Shown: positions 33,393 through 42,986, counted from the first letter of the stretch. The stretch: DNA of 64,000 nt from an uncultured Methanomicrobiales archaeon (GCA_903832665.1 CAILCG010000014.1:1-64000); one strand, 5' to 3'. Notes: generated from the letters alone by a model not told the origin. Translations and numbers: made by a program.

Positions 33393-33806
33393 ATGCCTCT
33401 CAAAGAGAAGATCCTGGAAGTGATTGGCGGACCTCATCCAACCGCAGTAGCGACACTGAATGGAAAAATGCCCGCGGTCCGCTTCATGGTCCTGGCTGGC
33501 TTTCCTGACATGACGTTTGTCGGGGCGACCATGAAATCCTCAAATAAGGTCGAACAGCTGAAGAAAAACCCGGATGCATCGCTCTCGGTCTGGTCCGGAA
33601 AAGAGTTCTCCGACCCGTATGTGGAGATTATAGCAAAAGCAAAAATTCACGAGGATGTTGCCACGAAAAAGAAGTACTGGAACCCGATGTTCGAGCAGTA
33701 CTTCAAAACTCCCGAGAATCCAGATTTTGTAGTACTTGTTTTTACCGCAAATGAGATCACCTATCACGGTAAGAACATGTCCAGCATGGAAGTCTGGAAA
33801 CGTTAA
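33393..33806 (+). CDS. Pyridoxamine 5'-phosphate oxidase family protein
   Basis: A 137-residue FMN-binding split-barrel protein. HPTAVATLNGKMPAVRFMV at the start is the usual first beta pair (the substrate binding His-Pro, then A-x-L-x-G), followed by MKSSNKVEQLKKNPDASLSVW and VEIIAKAKIHED. Members range from PNPOx to F420- or heme-dependent enzymes, and the cofactor is not settled by sequence. It is likely monocistronic. Confidence 0.88.
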   Translation: MPLKEKILEVIGGPHPTAVATLNGKMPAVRFMVLAGFPDMTFVGATMKSSNKVEQLKKNPDASLSVWSGKEFSDPYVEIIAKAKIHEDVATKKKYWNPMFEQYFKTPENPDFVVLVFTANEITYHGKNMSSMEVWKR

Positions 33807-34048: not shown

Positions 34049-34873
34049 TCACGTTACCATGAAGGGTAAAGTATTGGAATAGACCGGGCCGGGATTGGTT
34101 ACACCAACATTTCTGATCTGAGCAGCAGCGATATCTGCCGAACGTACGTTCAATGTCAGATGCTTTGAGGAAATATAGGTGGTGTCTGATTGTTGTGGAG
34201 CTCCGTGCCAGGTTACAATGGATCCCGGGACAAAACCAGTGCCGTAGATATTGAGAGTGAAAGCAGGCCCCTTTGCAATTGCAGTTGATGGACTTATGCT
34301 GGTCAGTGCTGGACCGGCCGGGATTGCCGTAGGGGTGGGGGTAGTTATGGTAGTGGGCACCGGATTTATCGTTGGTTGCGTGGTGAGGGCGACACTCTGG
34401 TCTCCCCATTGAGCGATGAGAATGTGTGCGGCATCATCAACCAGACGAATGCCGATTGGTGAGAATGGAACGGATTGGGCAGCCGGCTTGGCAATGTCTG
34501 ATACATTGTTGGTTATCCGGTAGCCACTTGAACTGTTGAATATGTACAGCATTGTCCCCGGTCCAAAGGAATCAATCCCCGGAAGGGGTAATGCACGATA
34601 ACTGCTGGATGGTGTGTCAACGTAGATACTCATCAGGTAGAGACGGCTTCCCGATGCTACGAGATAGGCAGTATCTCCACCCTTGTTAAACATGCTGATA
34701 ATATTTTTTCCAGAAATACTCTGGTTCTGGATATTCGGCACAATAAATGCAGATTTGCTTATAGGGTGATAGAAACCGGAGATAAATACCGCAAAAATTG
34801 AGACAAGCATGATGACGAGAAGGATCATCAGGATCGCTCCAATAACGCTGGTTAATCCGGATTCATTTTTCAT
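34049..34873 (-). CDS. Type IV pilin-like protein with IPT/TIG C-terminus
   Basis: A 274-residue protein with an archaeal pilin-type N-terminus (MKNESGLTSVIGAILMILLVI): a short charged leader, then SVIGAILMILL, which forms the hydrophobic spine of archaeal pilins and is the site cut by prepilin peptidases. The body (about 40-170) is beta-rich. A Thr/Pro linker then leads to an IPT/TIG domain (about 190-270; SISPSTAIAKGPAFTLNIYG). The pilin plus the TIG domain suggests a surface adhesin carried on a filament. The 24405 peptidase may process it. Confidence 0.8.
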   Translation of the reverse strand: MKNESGLTSVIGAILMILLVIMLVSIFAVFISGFYHPISKSAFIVPNIQNQSISGKNIISMFNKGGDTAYLVASGSRLYLMSIYVDTPSSSYRALPLPGIDSFGPGTMLYIFNSSSGYRITNNVSDIAKPAAQSVPFSPIGIRLVDDAAHILIAQWGDQSVALTTQPTINPVPTTITTPTPTAIPAGPALTSISPSTAIAKGPAFTLNIYGTGFVPGSIVTWHGAPQQSDTTYISSKHLTLNVRSADIAAAQIRNVGVTNPGPVYSNTLPFMVT

Positions 34874-36127: not shown

Positions 36128-37247
36128 TCATTTTTTGTATCCGAGGGCTGCTGCCCTGGCATGTGCAACCTGGCAAAAATATTCAACCTGACTATCCAGA
36201 CTACCGGTTTCGAGTGCAGCGTGTGCTGGACACCACATACAAAGATTGATGATGGGGCAGACGTGGCAGGTGCCCAGGTAGTCCTTGCAATCTGAACGCA
36301 TAGCCATTACTGTTGGTATGAAGTGCTGCCATGCATCCTGGACAGATATTTTTTTCACGTCGCAGATACAGTCCGGATGGCAAAGGGATTCGCAGAGCCG
36401 GAACATACCCTCGGGACTAATGACAAAATTGCTATCGCCTGCACCGCAAAAGAAGAGGTGATTCCCTGTTTCGGGGCTGAATCCGGGTAAGATATACTCA
36501 TGACAGTTTTTTCTCAGAGCTTTGGCCCGTTCGTCATCAGACTTTTCCAGTAAAACGATCTCTTCCGGGGTGAGCCGTTCCGTTCGTATTTCATCGTTCC
36601 GGACGAGGTCGTGGTCCATTCTCAGGTGCAGAAAGGGATCAAACCGGTAATAATCCTTGGTGCGGGACCGGGAAAATATCGTAATCTCCGGGATCTCATG
36701 GAGGTTTGAACGGATTGCCATGGCCTTGAGCCTGACCTTTATTCCTGCGTCCTGAAGCAGATCAAGCCCCCTCATGAAGGCATCGAATGAACCCGGTCTC
36801 CTGCTGATCGCTTCGTACGTCTCCCGGGTGACACCATACACCGTTATCTCAATGTCGCGGGGGGGATACCGGAGGAATAAGTCTATGTGGGTTTTATTGA
36901 TCAGGGTCGCATTGGTCATGACAGATACCAGAAGCCCTTTTTTCTTGAGGCCGAGATAAATCTCGGCGAAATTTGATCGAAGCAGAAGGTTCTCCCCCGG
37001 TGATGTTGCACCAGACTGCCCCCAACCGGACGGCCTGATCTGCGATATCGAGAATCTGTTCCGTACTCAACTCCTTCTGCCGGGCGCGGGCATCTTCAGC
37101 GGGAAGATTGATGTAGCAGTGACGGCAGTTATTATTGCAACGGGAAGTGACTTCGAGGGTAAAGGATTTGCAACCTCTCTGGTTTTCCATCTTCTCCCAT
37201 AAGGCAAATTCCTCAACAAGTTTTCGTGTGATCAACGGGAGTGGCAT
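36128..37247 (-). pseudogene. Radical SAM/SPASM peptide maturase B, frameshifted
   Basis: About 373 residues when repaired. The first frame (37247-36894) has a Cx3Cx2C iron-sulfur motif (C37, C41, C44 in TSRCNNNCRHCYINLP) and CNITGGEP. It then goes off at about 36995, where an extra T in CCTTCTG breaks frame. The other frame resumes with LLRSNFAEIYLGLKKKGLL and runs to 36128. The C-terminal SPASM-like region has many Cys (CGAGDSNF, CESLCHPDC, CKDYLGTCHVCPIINLCMWC, EYFC) for auxiliary clusters. Such enzymes crosslink or epimerise precursor peptides. It is the last gene of the peptide-modification cluster. Whether the frameshift is real is unknown. Confidence 0.85.
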
Positions 37248-37340
37248 CCGGGTTCACCTCCAGTAATTTTTACTCTGACCGGTGCAACGTTCCATGCTGC
37301 TTACCAGGAGCAGTCATCCCATTAGTCAGGCGAATCGTCT

Positions 37341-37880
37341 TCATGGCGCTGGGGGATTGCCGGATTGTGACCTGGAACCGCCAAGGGTATAACCTGCCAG
37401 GCCGCGCAATTTGTGAAGCCCAGCAGTACATACTCGATTTGGAAGTCTGATCACCCGGGATATTCTCCAGAGGAAGCCATGCCGACTCATAAAAGCGAGC
37501 AGGGCCCGTTCCGGTCCAAGCCCGGCGGGTATATTCCTGCCATTGCATTCAACCTTGGTGACATTACCAATGATTTTGGGAAGGGGAATCATGCCATCGG
37601 GCTCTTCCCGGTTATCTCCTTTGGTCTCGAAGGCATTATCTCCGCATTTAACAACACGGTGAATGATCAGGGTCCCACAATTGGGCAGTTCGAAAGCCAC
37701 AACGTCTCCCGGTGATGGACGATCTGAGGAAAACGGTACAATAGTGACGATATCATGGTCCTTGATAAACGGGTACATGCTGGAACCGTATGCAGCGAAA
37801 CGGAAGGGTTTTCTTTTTTCCATCGCTGCTTTTACCAGTTCAAGCCGGACCTCGCCAGAGAAGGATCCTTCGTCCTCCAT
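37341..37880 (-). CDS. Sec11-type (S26) signal peptidase-like protein
   Basis: A ~179-residue peptidase in the RiPP-like cluster. The catalytic Ser is in AAYGSSMYPF (about residue 34) and the following parts GTLIIHRVVK and ETKGDN carry the His and Asp of the Sec11/archaeal S26 type. Membrane anchoring is not obvious, and the usual N-terminal helix is missing, so it may be a cytosolic or peripheral peptidase trimming the modified peptide. The start is either ATG 37880, 20 bases after the PqqD-like gene, or GTG 37886; longer upstream frames overlap that gene. The C-terminal 40 residues are not family-like. Confidence 0.72.
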   Translation of the reverse strand: MEDEGSFSGEVRLELVKAAMEKRKPFRFAAYGSSMYPFIKDHDIVTIVPFSSDRPSPGDVVAFELPNCGTLIIHRVVKCGDNAFETKGDNREEPDGMIPLPKIIGNVTKVECNGRNIPAGLGPERALLAFMSRHGFLWRISRVIRLPNRVCTAGLHKLRGLAGYTLGGSRSQSGNPPAP

Positions 37881-37902
37881 CCTCACATAGGATCCGGTTT
37901 TT

Positions 37903-38205
37903 TCAGATTGCAACGACGATTTTCCTCCGGAAGAGTTCCGTAATAATTCCCTGCACATCCCGTTCGATCTCTCCGTCATGAGCATCATATTCTGCAGCCA
38001 GGTCAATGGCAATTTCCTGAAGGCTCAATTTACCATCGAGCCGTTCCCAGATACTCCTGCCGGTCTCATTTAATGTATAGATCTCGTCTTCCTGATCGCC
38101 AATTCCCGATGCAAGGGGCACGATGATCAGTTCCCCCATGATCTCGCGTGAAACCACATCCTCGGATCGCTGGAACACAGAGTCGCGGGTAATTACTATC
38201 TCCAC
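37903..38205 (-). CDS. PqqD-like RiPP recognition protein
   Basis: A 100-residue protein of the PqqD family, whose winged-helix fold binds the leader of a precursor peptide and hands it to a radical SAM enzyme. Characteristic are ELIIVPLASG, IYTLNETGRSIWERLDGKLSLQEIA and LAAEYDAHDGEIERDVQGIITEL. The GTG start has GGTGA just upstream. The position between the precursor gene and the peptidase gene supports a role in leader recognition. Confidence 0.9.
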   Translation of the reverse strand: MEIVITRDSVFQRSEDVVSREIMGELIIVPLASGIGDQEDEIYTLNETGRSIWERLDGKLSLQEIAIDLAAEYDAHDGEIERDVQGIITELFRRKIVVAI

Positions 38206-38347
38206 AGGTTCACCATTTCTGTTGTACAGTATCCCTCTTGTTTACTGGTTAAAAAAAGTTGGGGGCATCACCGGAAATAAAGAAATACACAACGATTCTA
38301 TTTTTTTCAACCGACTATTGGAGGGAATAACCCTCAGGAAATTTAAT

Positions 38348-38354
38348 AAAAAAA
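38348..38354 (-). terminator. T-run after the precursor gene
   Basis: Seven T on the minus strand, about ten bases after the precursor stop codon. It may terminate part of the transcripts so that the precursor is made in excess over the PqqD and peptidase genes behind it. That use is inference. Confidence 0.5.
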
Positions 38355-38363
38355 TTTGCGGAA

Positions 38364-38588
38364 TTAAGAGGCGTTAGGAGTAATACAGGCAATGCAGATT
38401 CTATGCTGTCCATGACCACCGATTTTGATCATGCAGGAGGATTTACTGGAGTTTGAATTTGAAGTGCCCTTATCGGCAGCCTTAAAGGAAATTATTTGCG
38501 TGGCATGTTTACATTTCGTAAGAAGGTTCTCATCCGAGGTGTTCCGCACCAAGACAATCAACTCGGGTTTTGTCCAGGATTTCTTCAT
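38364..38588 (-). CDS. Candidate RiPP precursor peptide
   Basis: A 74-residue peptide, MKKSWTKPELIVLVRNTSDE then NLLTKCK and a core rich in Ser, Asn and Gly. The K-x-W-x-x-P-E-L-I-V-L-V-R stretch (residues 3-15) and the ENLLTKC that follows look like a conserved leader of Cys-containing peptides modified by radical SAM enzymes. Cysteines are at 26, 52, 65 and 68, the last two in CIAC. I choose the ATG at 38588; an upstream ATG at 38609 adds seven residues but lacks a ribosome-binding site. It lies directly between the radical SAM/SPASM gene and the PqqD-like gene. Confidence 0.75.
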   Translation of the reverse strand: MKKSWTKPELIVLVRNTSDENLLTKCKHATQIISFKAADKGTSNSNSSKSSCMIKIGGHGQHRICIACITPNAS

Positions 38589-38618
38589 CGTAAAATGTTC
38601 CACGGGCATACTATAATT

Positions 38619-39817
38619 CTATTCTTTTGTTCCGGTATATATCCGTTCGGACAACGCCATGATCCTCCCGGGCCAATCGATAACATCCCATGCACTCTCA
38701 CCCCGATGGAGGAGCCCGAGATCCACAGCCTGGACATGGGCTACCCTGCAGAAATACTCCACCGGAGTATCAAGCGTCCCATGCTCCATCCAGGATTTTG
38801 CAGGGCATTGCTCGCACATCCCCCTCAGGAAACAGCGGGCGCAACGGGAAAGATACTCGGGATTTGTGGCCTCCTTCTCCCGCAACTGAGGAAAGAACCG
38901 GGTGAGTGCATCATGGAGAGAACCAGCAGGGCGTATACTGTTTCAGGATGCCTGAGCAGGAGGCAGGGCTGCAGCACGCCATAGGCATCCACACAGCCAC
39001 CGAGACCGGCTCCGCAGGGAAAGAGTCTCTCCCCGGGGGGTCGCATGAATCGTGAACAGAAGTCCTGCATATGTTTACTATACACCTGCCGGTTCTGGGA
39101 TAGTATGGCTAGGCCCTCCTCCGGCGATATACGCAGGCTTTCGATAACCAGGTTCTTTGCCGGGGAATCACGTCGACAACGAAGGTCCAGAAACAGGGAA
39201 TAGACAGGAAGGACTTTCATGGCCGGAATGGTCGACTCCCAGTTTTCGAACAGTGCGATTTCATCACGGTTCGTGGGGAGAAATGAACTTTTCACCACAA
39301 ACGGAATCTTCCGGTCAAGCAGGAGATCGATACCCCGCCGGAACTCGTCATACGATCCACTAACCCGGGAGACCGCTTCATAGGACGTTTTTGTCATACC
39401 ATAAACCGTGACCTCCATCAACTCCCGGGGGGGAACACGGGCGAGCAGGTCTGCTATTGCCGGGGTGATGAGCCGGGCGTTCGTGAAAATCATAACATTC
39501 AGGCCAAGTCTCCGGGCAAACAGGTATAGTTCCGCAAAATCCTTCCGCAGGAGGGGCTCTCCTCCGGTAAATCGTACGGAAAGAGCCCCAAGTGTTGCAG
39601 CTTCGATCAGGATCCGTTTGACTTCCCCGGTTGGGATCTCCCGTTCCCGGGCAGCATCCTCTTCGGGGAGGTTGATGCAACAATGGATACAGTCATTGTT
39701 GCAACGCTCGGTCAGCTCCAGGTCCAGGCTGCCCAGCAAAGGAGTCCTGTTTTTCCAGAGATCATAGGAAGTGGCGTTGACGTTGACCACGTAGGGCGAT
39801 GGGATCTCATCAGTCAT
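38619..39817 (-). pseudogene. Radical SAM/SPASM peptide maturase A, frameshifted
   Basis: About 399 residues if repaired. The first frame (39817-38825) shows the iron-sulfur motif CNNDCIHC (C39, C43, C46), VRFTGGEPLLRKDF, then CGAGLGGC and CLLLRHPETVYALL. At about 38935 one G seems missing from CTGCTGGTTC; the other frame gives GSLHDALTRFFPQLREKEAT and the SPASM end CARCFLRGMCEQC and EYFCRVAHVQA. Its ATG overlaps the stop of the HPr-kinase-like gene (ATGA). It is closely similar in layout to maturase B but distinct in sequence. It probably modifies the nearby precursor. Confidence 0.87.
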
Positions 39818-40656
39818 GTCAATGTTCCTCCAGGAGGTGGAGCCTGCACCAGGTCTCCGAGTTCTTTCACGATTGCCCCGCTCTTGTTAAACTGCATCGT
39901 AAAACAGGGTACTTTTTCAACAATCTTCTCCAGCACGTCGAGTTCCTTCTGCCACCAGGCCTCCGTTACCATCGGCCTGATGAGCGTAGCAAGCAACCGT
40001 TTCCAAATCTCTCTGCGATCCGTGAGCGGTGTGAGACGGTTCGTTGTATCCTGTTGCAGGAACATGATTGCCCGCAATGGTGCCGATGCTGGCGATACCT
40101 CTGCTACATCTCCGTGACTCCAGGTACCATGAACGAACCACCCGTCATCCTGGTGCCGTATAATGTTGCGGTCATCGCACAAGATTCCTGATTTCAGCCC
40201 ATTTCCGGGATTCGAGTCCTCACCCGGTAAGGCGTTCATCAGGTATACACCCTTGAGCATATTTACGGTCGTGGATTTACCGGCTCCTGAGTGACCAGCA
40301 AACAGCAAGCCCTGTCCATTGACAATCACTCCGGCCGAATGAATCATTACTGCATTCCTGTCCGCTAGGAGCGGGGCCAGCCAGATCTGGTCTGTGGGGA
40401 GATGCGCGAGAGAATCCCACTCGTAGTTGCTGATCTCTTTGCGCTCCCGGGGATGGTGGTAAATTGTCGCATTTGTGTAGTCAGCGCTGAATACCCAGAC
40501 GCGATGCTTTTCCGGATCGTCCCGGGTGGGTGAAATCTCCTGGTAGAGCCACATCCCGTTCATCCGCGAGATTAACCAGGGGGGCTTGCGATAGACCTCA
40601 GTGCCGAGATCACTGGCCGGTATATCAGGAATTCCGAAAACGTGACGGAACAGCAC
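39814..40656 (-). CDS. HPr-kinase-like P-loop protein
   Basis: A 280-residue protein with Walker A GHSGAGKST at residues 121-129, preceded by VMIHSAGVIVNGQGLLFA, typical of HPr kinase/phosphorylase-like proteins in peptide-modification clusters. The later residues DDGWFVHGTWSHGD may belong to the active site. Similar kinases act on lasso peptides and on PqqD-associated systems. GGTGAT before the ATG is a good ribosome-binding site. It is the first gene of the cluster and is coupled to the first radical SAM gene. Phosphorylation of the precursor is inference. Confidence 0.85.
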   Translation of the reverse strand: MLFRHVFGIPDIPASDLGTEVYRKPPWLISRMNGMWLYQEISPTRDDPEKHRVWVFSADYTNATIYHHPRERKEISNYEWDSLAHLPTDQIWLAPLLADRNAVMIHSAGVIVNGQGLLFAGHSGAGKSTTVNMLKGVYLMNALPGEDSNPGNGLKSGILCDDRNIIRHQDDGWFVHGTWSHGDVAEVSPASAPLRAIMFLQQDTTNRLTPLTDRREIWKRLLATLIRPMVTEAWWQKELDVLEKIVEKVPCFTMQFNKSGAIVKELGDLVQAPPPGGTLT

Positions 40657-40893
40657 ATTGTCATCACCAGGCCCGTCAACAGCGAACGGGGTCAGTGCAG
40701 GAATGTCACGATTTCAGGGCCGGCCTATTCCCCGAAGATCTATATGTCGCGATGGGGCTCCTATATCTCCGGGTATGCCCCGATAAAGGATTCAAATGGT
40801 ACGATTGTCGGAATACTGGGAGTTGACGAGACCGCAGCAACGGTACTCAGTTACGATGTTTACCGTTTTTTCAATCTCGTTGAAGTATCGTGA
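40642..40893 (+). pseudogene. C-terminal fragment of a dCache-type sensor domain
   Basis: An 83-codon frame whose second part (YMSRWGSYISGYAPIKDSNG followed by TIVGILGVDETAATVL) is characteristic of the last strands of dCache/PDC extracellular sensor domains. The preceding part of such a domain, its membrane helices and any kinase or chemoreceptor part are missing. It overlaps the start of the HPr-kinase-like gene on the other strand by 15 bases. It is a relic, probably left by insertion of the cluster or by deletion. Confidence 0.6.
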
Positions 40894-41827: not shown

Positions 41828-42185
41828 AGGATCCTGCGGGAGATGATCCATTGGCTCACTTTCTTTTTGGTGATCTTTTAGGTAAGGGATCTCGTGCCCC
41901 CGTCATAATCAAAGTACATCCCGACCCTCTCCTCTTTTTTTGGAGGGGATGGTCGCCCTACAGCACACGTAGGGACCCTCCCCCCTTCGGCTGCATGAAC
42001 AAAAAAACGCTCTCCGTCGTGACTCCATGCGAAGCCGTGCCTGCGAGTATGCAAAAAGGGAGGGGAGGGTCACCCTCCGGGCACATGGGAGGGGGTACCC
42101 ACTTAGCGCAAAGGTGTGGAGGATTCATTTCCAGCAAAAAGATGATGAATCCCCGGCACTAACTATCACCAAAGGATTGTGACCG

Positions 42186-42404
42186 GTGACTTCTTTCCAT
42201 ACCATCAAAGGAAAAGATGCCGTCAAAGCATTTTCCAATGCCGGAGGGAAGGTTCGCCCGGGAAAAGGTGATCATGTCAATATCAAGATGGCGAACGGAC
42301 AACTGATCACCATCCCGGTATCCGGAGAAGTCAAGATCGGGCTCTTGAAAGCCGCGATCAAAAAAGCAGGGTTGACTGAAGAAGAATTTGAAAAATTGTT
42401 ATGA
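42186..42404 (+). CDS. hicA: HicA-family mRNA interferase toxin
   Basis: A 72-residue double-stranded RNA-binding-like toxin of a type II toxin-antitoxin pair. The start IKGKDAVKAFSNAGGKVRPG and the strand with GDHVNIKMANGQLITIP match the family, where the catalytic His is the one in GDHV. It cuts mRNA when free. It is preceded by a GTG start and followed after nine bases by its antitoxin HicB. The pair lies in a region flanked by GC-rich repeats. Confidence 0.9.
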   Translation: MTSFHTIKGKDAVKAFSNAGGKVRPGKGDHVNIKMANGQLITIPVSGEVKIGLLKAAIKKAGLTEEEFEKLL

Positions 42405-42413
42405 GAGATAATC

Positions 42414-42641
42414 ATGGAATACACGATTCTGATCCACAAGGCAGATGAAGGCGGGTTCTGGGCTGAAGTGCCGGCACTTTCAGGCTGCTTCTCACAGGGT
42501 GAGACCATCGAAGAGACAATTGCGAACACCAAGGAGGCAATTGAACTGCATATCTCCTGCCTGCGGGAAGACGGGGAAGAGATCCCGGTTGATAATGAAT
42601 TTATTATAAGCCGCGTACGGGTTGAGACCGTCGCAGTATAA
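42414..42641 (+). CDS. hicB: HicB-family antitoxin
   Basis: A 75-residue partner of HicA. The partial RNase H-like fold is visible in YTILIHKADEGGFWAEVPALSGCFSQGETIEE and the helix after it. It lacks a DNA-binding C-terminal domain of some long HicB proteins, so auto-repression by the complex may need another factor. It binds and blocks HicA. Nine bases separate the two genes. Confidence 0.92.
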   Translation: MEYTILIHKADEGGFWAEVPALSGCFSQGETIEETIANTKEAIELHISCLREDGEEIPVDNEFIISRVRVETVAV

Positions 42642-42986
42642 CGCTGTCCCAACTCTTTTTACACGTTCATTCATGCCTCATCTTCCTCAAGATGCAGCCA
42701 GTCCTGCTTCATGGAATATTACAGATTTCCCGTCATGAGAGGTCACCCTCAAACGATGAGGGAGGAGGTCTCCTCATTTCCGCATGAGTGGGGGGGAGGG
42801 GTACCCCCTCTCTTAACCGGGAGAGGGAGTAGGCAGGCCCGGTATCCCCCCCTCTTATTTTGGACAGGGGTACCCACCCCCCTTCTTTTTTTGGCGTGGG
42901 GGGTGGGTACCCCTCCGGGCATATGAGGGGCTCCCATCCCCCCTTTCGAAATAACGAGCCACAGGTCACCCTTCACGTCAAAAAAG
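42642..42986. other. GC-skewed intergenic region between hicB and HEPN gene
   Basis: About 345 bases with long G and C runs, containing the strong hairpin at 42866-42914. Segments such as CTCCGGGCATATGAGGGG resemble CTCCGGGCACATGGGAGG near 42075-42095 on the other side of hicAB, so the toxin-antitoxin pair is flanked by diverged copies of a repeat. No gene is seen. Confidence 0.6.
42866..42914. repeat. Perfect 17-base inverted repeat (stem-loop)
   Basis: AGGGGTACCCACCCCCC at 42866-42882 is exactly reverse-complemented by 42898-42914, with a 15-base T-rich loop. The arms would form a very stable hairpin in RNA or cruciform DNA. It lies 73 bases before the HEPN gene and 225 bases after hicB. 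It could terminate hicAB transcription or mark an element end. Confidence 0.85.

Follow-up and report, generated by a model that had tools for sequence, protein, structure and literature searches.

The system of linear polyphosphorylated peptides (LPP; Popov et al. 2026, PMC13381572) brings together a RiPP recognition element (RRE), a SpI peptidase, an HprK kinase, an NTP transferase and an MsbA-like exporter. Its leader reads YxxPxVLxHQxIxFETxxS, LppA is cut after position 15 counted from Y = 0, the phospho-Ser lies three residues past the cut, and the catalytic residues of LppS are S29, H68 and D93 (PMC13381572). The system is reported to be restricted to Bacillota, and the paper makes no mention of radical SAM (PMC13381572). 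Kinases of lasso peptides carry a His-Lys-Asp-Asp (HKDD) motif and phosphorylate the C-terminal Ser (PMC9266682); in the paeninodin type, with the kinases PadeK and ThcoK (PMC9266682, PMC5067487), they are accompanied by a [Y/W]xxP leader (WxxP in paeninodin) and a PqqD-like B1 protein. SynChlorMet, a system defined by the NCBIfam models TIGR04248-TIGR04251, comprises a PqqD-like protein, two radical SAM/SPASM enzymes, an HprK-like kinase, an S26-like peptidase and a small peptide. The sactipeptide and ranthipeptide maturases (AlbA, SkfB, PapB) combine radical SAM and SPASM domains and go with Cys-rich precursors.

Here we describe a locus related to these systems in a stretch of 64,000 nucleotides (hereafter the window) from an uncultured Methanomicrobiales archaeon. 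The setting of the window is a 463-kb contig in a 2.9-Mb genome, whose relatives among named records are Methanoregula, Methanolinea and other Methanomicrobiales. The initial annotation had listed five gene types on one strand, with an ATGA overlap between the kinase-like gene and the first radical SAM gene. All genes indeed lie on the minus strand, transcribed in the order K, R1, precursor, D, S and R2 (Table 1), and the overlap, formed by the stop of K and the start of R1, is at 39814-39817. The 74-residue peptide reported between the maturase and the PqqD-like gene is present as well (frame 38588-38364). Around the cluster, we observed a HicA/HicB toxin-antitoxin pair (PF07927, PF15919) upstream (window 42186-42641, plus strand), and short GC-rich repeats, direct and inverted, around GGTACCC motifs (window 41926-42930). 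An archaeal type IV pilin-like gene (PF07790) lies downstream (window 34049-34873, minus strand), and a gene like Pyridoxamine 5'-phosphate oxidase (PF01243) is found at window 33393-33806 (plus strand).

Table 1 Features of the cluster, in window coordinates.
Feature	Position	Strand	Evidence
K: HprK-like kinase, 280 aa from GTG	39814..40656	-	AlphaFold fold, HKDD residues, tree
Fusion-linker remnant (FAVDGPGDDN) and end of radical SAM-kinase homology	40657..40691	-	tblastn to L043 fusion (665 aa) and L057
R1: radical SAM/SPASM-type maturase, single frameshift at 38927	38619..39817	-	PF04055; identity to R1 of L043
Precursor peptide	38364..38609; 74 aa from ATG 38588, 81 aa from ATG 38609	-	homologues; dN/dS
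D: PqqD family protein (RiPP recognition element)	37903..38205	-	PF05402
S: signal-peptidase-I-like serine peptidase, putative leader peptidase	37341..37880	-	PF00717, Peptidase_S24; sigpep_I_arch below cut-off
R2: radical SAM/SPASM maturase, single frameshift at ~36987	36128..37247	-	Radical_SAM (Pfam), SPASM-like C-terminus, CxxxCxxC

A RiPP-type cluster had been proposed from the gene content, and the neighbourhood search agrees with this, as precursor, PqqD and radical SAM genes occur together in relatives. The window precursor has the leader WTKPELIVLVRNTSDENLLTKCK and a core with three Cys and a Ser at the C-terminus. Its frame is not a product of chance, since it has a relative at 63% identity, dN to the nearest relative is far below dS (0.31 against 2.7, Nei-Gojobori), and about 100 homologues lie beside the same enzymes. 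An iterated leader profile gave 105 matches, 100 of them distinct, and the counts below refer to the 94 with the leader and Cys-Lys or a variant of it. The leader consensus is WxxPxLxVL(R/K)xxxEExVLxxCK, and the spacing from Trp to Cys is exactly 21 in 87/94 precursors. Past Cys-Lys the cores are hypervariable apart from a Cys at position -7 (75/94) and the terminal Ser. Such a conserved leader and variable core beside an RRE and a maturase are what generally marks a RiPP with a radical SAM maturase. With the aromatic residue counted as 0, position 15 is Glu in 93% of the precursors, which is the register of the LppA cut. The VLxxC motif was also considered as a lipoprotein signal, a reading that we rejected as no signal-peptide-like hydrophobic core precedes it; a cut just before the Cys by the -3/-1 small-residue rule was likewise discarded, position 20 being too variable.

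The last residue of the precursors is Ser in 80 and Thr in 7 of the 94 (Ser or Thr, 87/94), while Ser makes up 12% of the core residues and Ser plus Thr 19%. The binomial tail of about 1e-53 for Ser or Thr is given for scale only, as it assumes independence and overstates it because the precursors are homologous, though their cores are otherwise hypervariable. This bias fits an HprK-type kinase acting at the C-terminus, as PadeK does on paeninodin, and by this analogy the C-terminal Ser is likely to be the phosphorylation site.

K gave a weak P-loop/HprK signal alone with Pfam. Searching with its best AlphaFold model (mean pLDDT 87) returned PEPCK and HPr kinase/phosphorylase (HprK/P) as the sole folds among the 50 matches listed. 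These two enzymes share one fold. The query-normalised TM-scores are low (0.25-0.42), so the fold can be assigned and its detail cannot. The signature residues H106, K127, D161 and D162 are kept in 55, 58, 55 and 55 of 60 aligned relatives, respectively, and the description of K as HPr-kinase-like thus holds in both fold and signature. In 41 of the 60 aligned cases, a radical SAM domain (R3) precedes the kinase domain within a single frame longer than 600 residues, and in 18 the kinase stands alone (<450 residues). The window K groups with the fused kinase of the related locus L043 (support 99/93), on a long branch. Moreover, tblastn homology to the 665-residue L043 fusion runs upstream past the GTG of K through a linker (FAVDGPGDDN in the window, FIADGPGVDN in L043) and then ends at ~40690. 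The linker has no start codon upstream of K, and beyond the end of the homology there is a stop codon, followed by DNA antisense to a cache-sensor fragment. These features suggest that the window K is probably the C-terminal half, or stump, left by a radical SAM-kinase fusion after loss of its N-terminal R3 half at ~40690. The cache-sensor fragment itself lies at window 40642-40893 (plus strand) and is a weak Pfam Cache match.

The remaining proteins have matches in domain searches. D matches PF05402 with 56 bits, over the cut-off, and lasso PqqD models below theirs. S, annotated initially as a Sec11-type peptidase, proves to be a Ser/His/Asp peptidase of the signal peptidase I kind: PF00717 is over its cut-off, sigpep_I_arch lies just under (49.1 bits, cut-off 51.85), and the catalytic S33, H73 and D88 (residue 1 being E at 37877), which parallel S29, H68 and D93 of LppS, are invariant in 58/58 relatives. 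Radical_SAM (Pfam) matches both R1 and R2. Their CxxxCxxC motif is invariant in both, for R2 in 82/82 relatives, and further Cys are conserved in the C-terminal SPASM-like parts.

To see how far the family extends, an R2 profile was run on GTDB genomes, which gave 162 pattern matches, of which 145 encode a relative; the analysis retained 79 distinct loci. Going by the titles that submitters gave, they cover 15 phyla, with archaea and over a dozen bacterial phyla represented and 13 loci unassigned, so that the system is not confined to methanogens. Omnitrophota (14), Methanobacteriota (9), Myxococcota (9), Chlorobiota (7) and Chloroflexota (6) are joined by ten more, Actinomycetota among them. 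Single labels are weak, since bins can hold stray contigs, but their sum is not. On the R2 tree several phyla are scattered, and Omnitrophota, Chlorobiota and Actinomycetota cluster; the scatter suits horizontal transfer without proving it. R2 was searched for on plasmids and viral contigs, and none was found. The kinase is present in 9/108 genomes of the archaeon's own taxonomic family, and the system is therefore sparse there too.

The usual gene order is fusion or kinase, R1, D, S and R2, with precursors between these or at the ends; exceptions include L061, L077, L093, L096, L107, L108, L110, L119, L125 and L137. In the 36 loci whose sequence reaches 8 kb or more beyond R2 on its upstream side, S was found in 33, D in 32, R1 in 32, a kinase or fusion in 29 and a recognised precursor in 27. 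Genes that recur nearby encode an MsbA-type ABC transporter in 29 loci, an NTP_transf_5 protein in 28 and a methyltransferase in 12. The window's own genome has no PF14907 (NTP_transf_5) and no NHLM ABC1 match over cut-off. Elsewhere, a Methanoregula contig with a family locus also carries an NHLM-type ABC1/ABC2 exporter pair over NCBIfam cut-offs (L040:7537-12581), and in a Chlorobiaceae locus (L136) the kinase-R1-R2 set occurs twice in tandem.

The initial annotation named no described system with this exact combination of genes. That the combination is otherwise without counterpart is not supported, as LPP has an RRE, a SpI peptidase and an HprK kinase, and SynChlorMet has all five gene types. 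We examined whether the locus belongs to one of these. Were it a divergent SynChlorMet cassette, one would understand that the Scm models match K, D and the radical SAM genes and that true Scm cassettes exist in related archaea; one of the loci (L049), as an aside, has two ScmC-type kinases ~6 kb apart, apparently two adjacent SynChlorMet cassettes. Yet all scores fall far under the cut-offs (ScmC 29/125, ScmD 24/100, ScmE 57/400, ScmF 63/400), and the Scm loci and the window enzymes show mostly about 21-39% identity, often over part of the length. The gene order differs too, and the candidate precursors, found by motif beside Scm loci, are of the YxxP type and mostly lack a C-terminal Ser. 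We therefore consider this origin improbable. In the own genome, the ScmC model has no match. An LPP cluster with acquired radical SAM enzymes, in which phosphorylation would be the primary modification, appears unlikely to a similar degree. It would account for the discrete RRE, the archaeal-type Ser/His/Asp signal peptidase for the leader, the HprK-like kinase and the [Y/W]xxP leader, and, in the relatives, for the NTP_transf_5 protein and the MsbA-type transporter. LPP, however, has a YxxP leader, a phospho-Ser near the core start and a reported confinement to Bacillota, against WxxP, a C-terminal Ser and many phyla here; the leader of the window and of the family does not fit the LPP leader with phospho-Ser at core position 3, and most family loci hold at least two radical SAM genes.

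The paeninodin-type lasso peptides share with the window the HKDD kinase, the conserved C-terminal Ser acceptor and the [Y/W]xxP leader alongside a PqqD-like protein, but radical SAM enzymes stand here in place of the macrolactam synthetase and B2 peptidase, neither of which was recognised as a recurrent neighbour among the loci or seen among the window genes scanned. With the sactipeptide and ranthipeptide maturases the locus shares the radical SAM plus SPASM domains and the Cys-rich precursors. Their models all stay below cut-off, and the locus stands apart from them in its precursor family, its RRE arrangement and its kinase. For R1, R2, the fusion and the precursor of L043, no NCBIfam model passes its cut-off, and overall the cut-offs were passed by general models alone. 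In a literature text search covering few subscription papers, no paper joined HprK, radical SAM and RiPP, and there were no hits for SynChlorMet or for the leader strings.

We next sought to establish the state of the window copy. The frameshifts reported at first in both maturases are present in the sequence. Aligned to intact relatives, R1 switches from frame -1 to frame -3 at 38927 and R2 makes the opposite switch at ~36987, with practically no homologous residues lost in either; the two parts of R1 are 68% and 72% identical to the intact R1 of L043. The inactivity suggested along with them is probable, and the damage seems to exceed what was described, as the N-terminal half of the fusion is apparently gone. 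The own genome contains no second intact R2 and no other strong R2 match. With R1 and R2 frameshifted and the R3 half absent, a complete radical SAM enzyme of this family was not found there, and the pathway is probably inoperative. K, D, S and the precursor are undamaged, which could reflect residual use. In every part compared, dN is far below dS, the latter being rough owing to saturation, and a fair reading is that the radical SAM functions were lost not long ago.

Read or local assembly errors are a possible source of the two indels, less so of the truncated fusion. If they were the source, and K a normal stand-alone kinase, the cluster would work in this strain, a case we rate as rather unlikely, if a little less so than an SynChlorMet or LPP origin. 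Each break is indeed a single frame change with homology on both sides, and the precursor, D and S show no breaks and have a dN well under dS. In addition, the presence of stand-alone kinases in some family members means that the R3 loss need not be fatal. What speaks against a working cluster is the linker without a start codon, the junction with an unrelated gene and the grouping of K with a fused kinase, together with the coincidence of two breaks in two genes. As a rough background for the latter, we set 400 kb of the own contig against the reading frames of a complete related genome; across 113 ortholog intervals (36,178 aa) the frame changed in 2, one of which also had an in-frame stop. 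In-frame stops without a frame change marked out ten more intervals. Of the nine examined individually (all but 110148-110564), eight were over-extended starts or the true end, and L230_5839 looked like a shadow frame. The window cluster is thus best read as probably a relic, with intact relatives elsewhere, for instance a Methanolinea locus (L059) that has the precursor, D, S, R1, R2 and an R3-K fusion.

Taken together, we consider it quite probable that the window cluster decayed recently and belongs to a RiPP family of patchy distribution, apparently undescribed, working in the following way. D would bind the leader through WxxPxL and present the precursor, and two or three SPASM radical SAM enzymes (R1, R2 and R3) would act on the Cys-rich core, with Cys crosslinks in the product being plausible from the sequences. 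The HprK-type kinase, mostly fused to R3, would phosphorylate the C-terminal Ser. S would cut off the leader; going by the LppA register, the site may be just behind the conserved Glu at 15 residues from the Trp, in which case the product would retain the nearly invariant Cys-Lys. An MsbA-type or NHLM-type ABC transporter would export the product. The analysis itself establishes which genes are there and in what order, their conservation, the catalytic residues, the fold of the kinase, the bias to a C-terminal Ser and the lesions. We infer every one of the chemical steps, including the modification chemistry.

For the window strain the message is a sober one, since its cluster is probably a relic. 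Beyond this strain, we give about even chances to a wider reading, namely that these loci form a widespread class of RiPPs. In it, a single Cys-rich precursor would be worked on by three enzymes, a bifunctional radical SAM-HprK fusion and two further SPASM enzymes; the product would be radically crosslinked and (poly)phosphorylated at its C-terminal Ser, and the genes would have spread horizontally across archaea and many bacterial phyla. If this is right, the searched sources contain neither a name nor a curated model nor a product for a broad family of radical SAM RiPPs. Radical crosslinking and phosphorylation of the C-terminus, studied apart until now, would then meet in this family, for most members within a single polypeptide. 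With its conserved terminal Ser, its rigid leader and its intact relatives, the family lends itself to direct testing.
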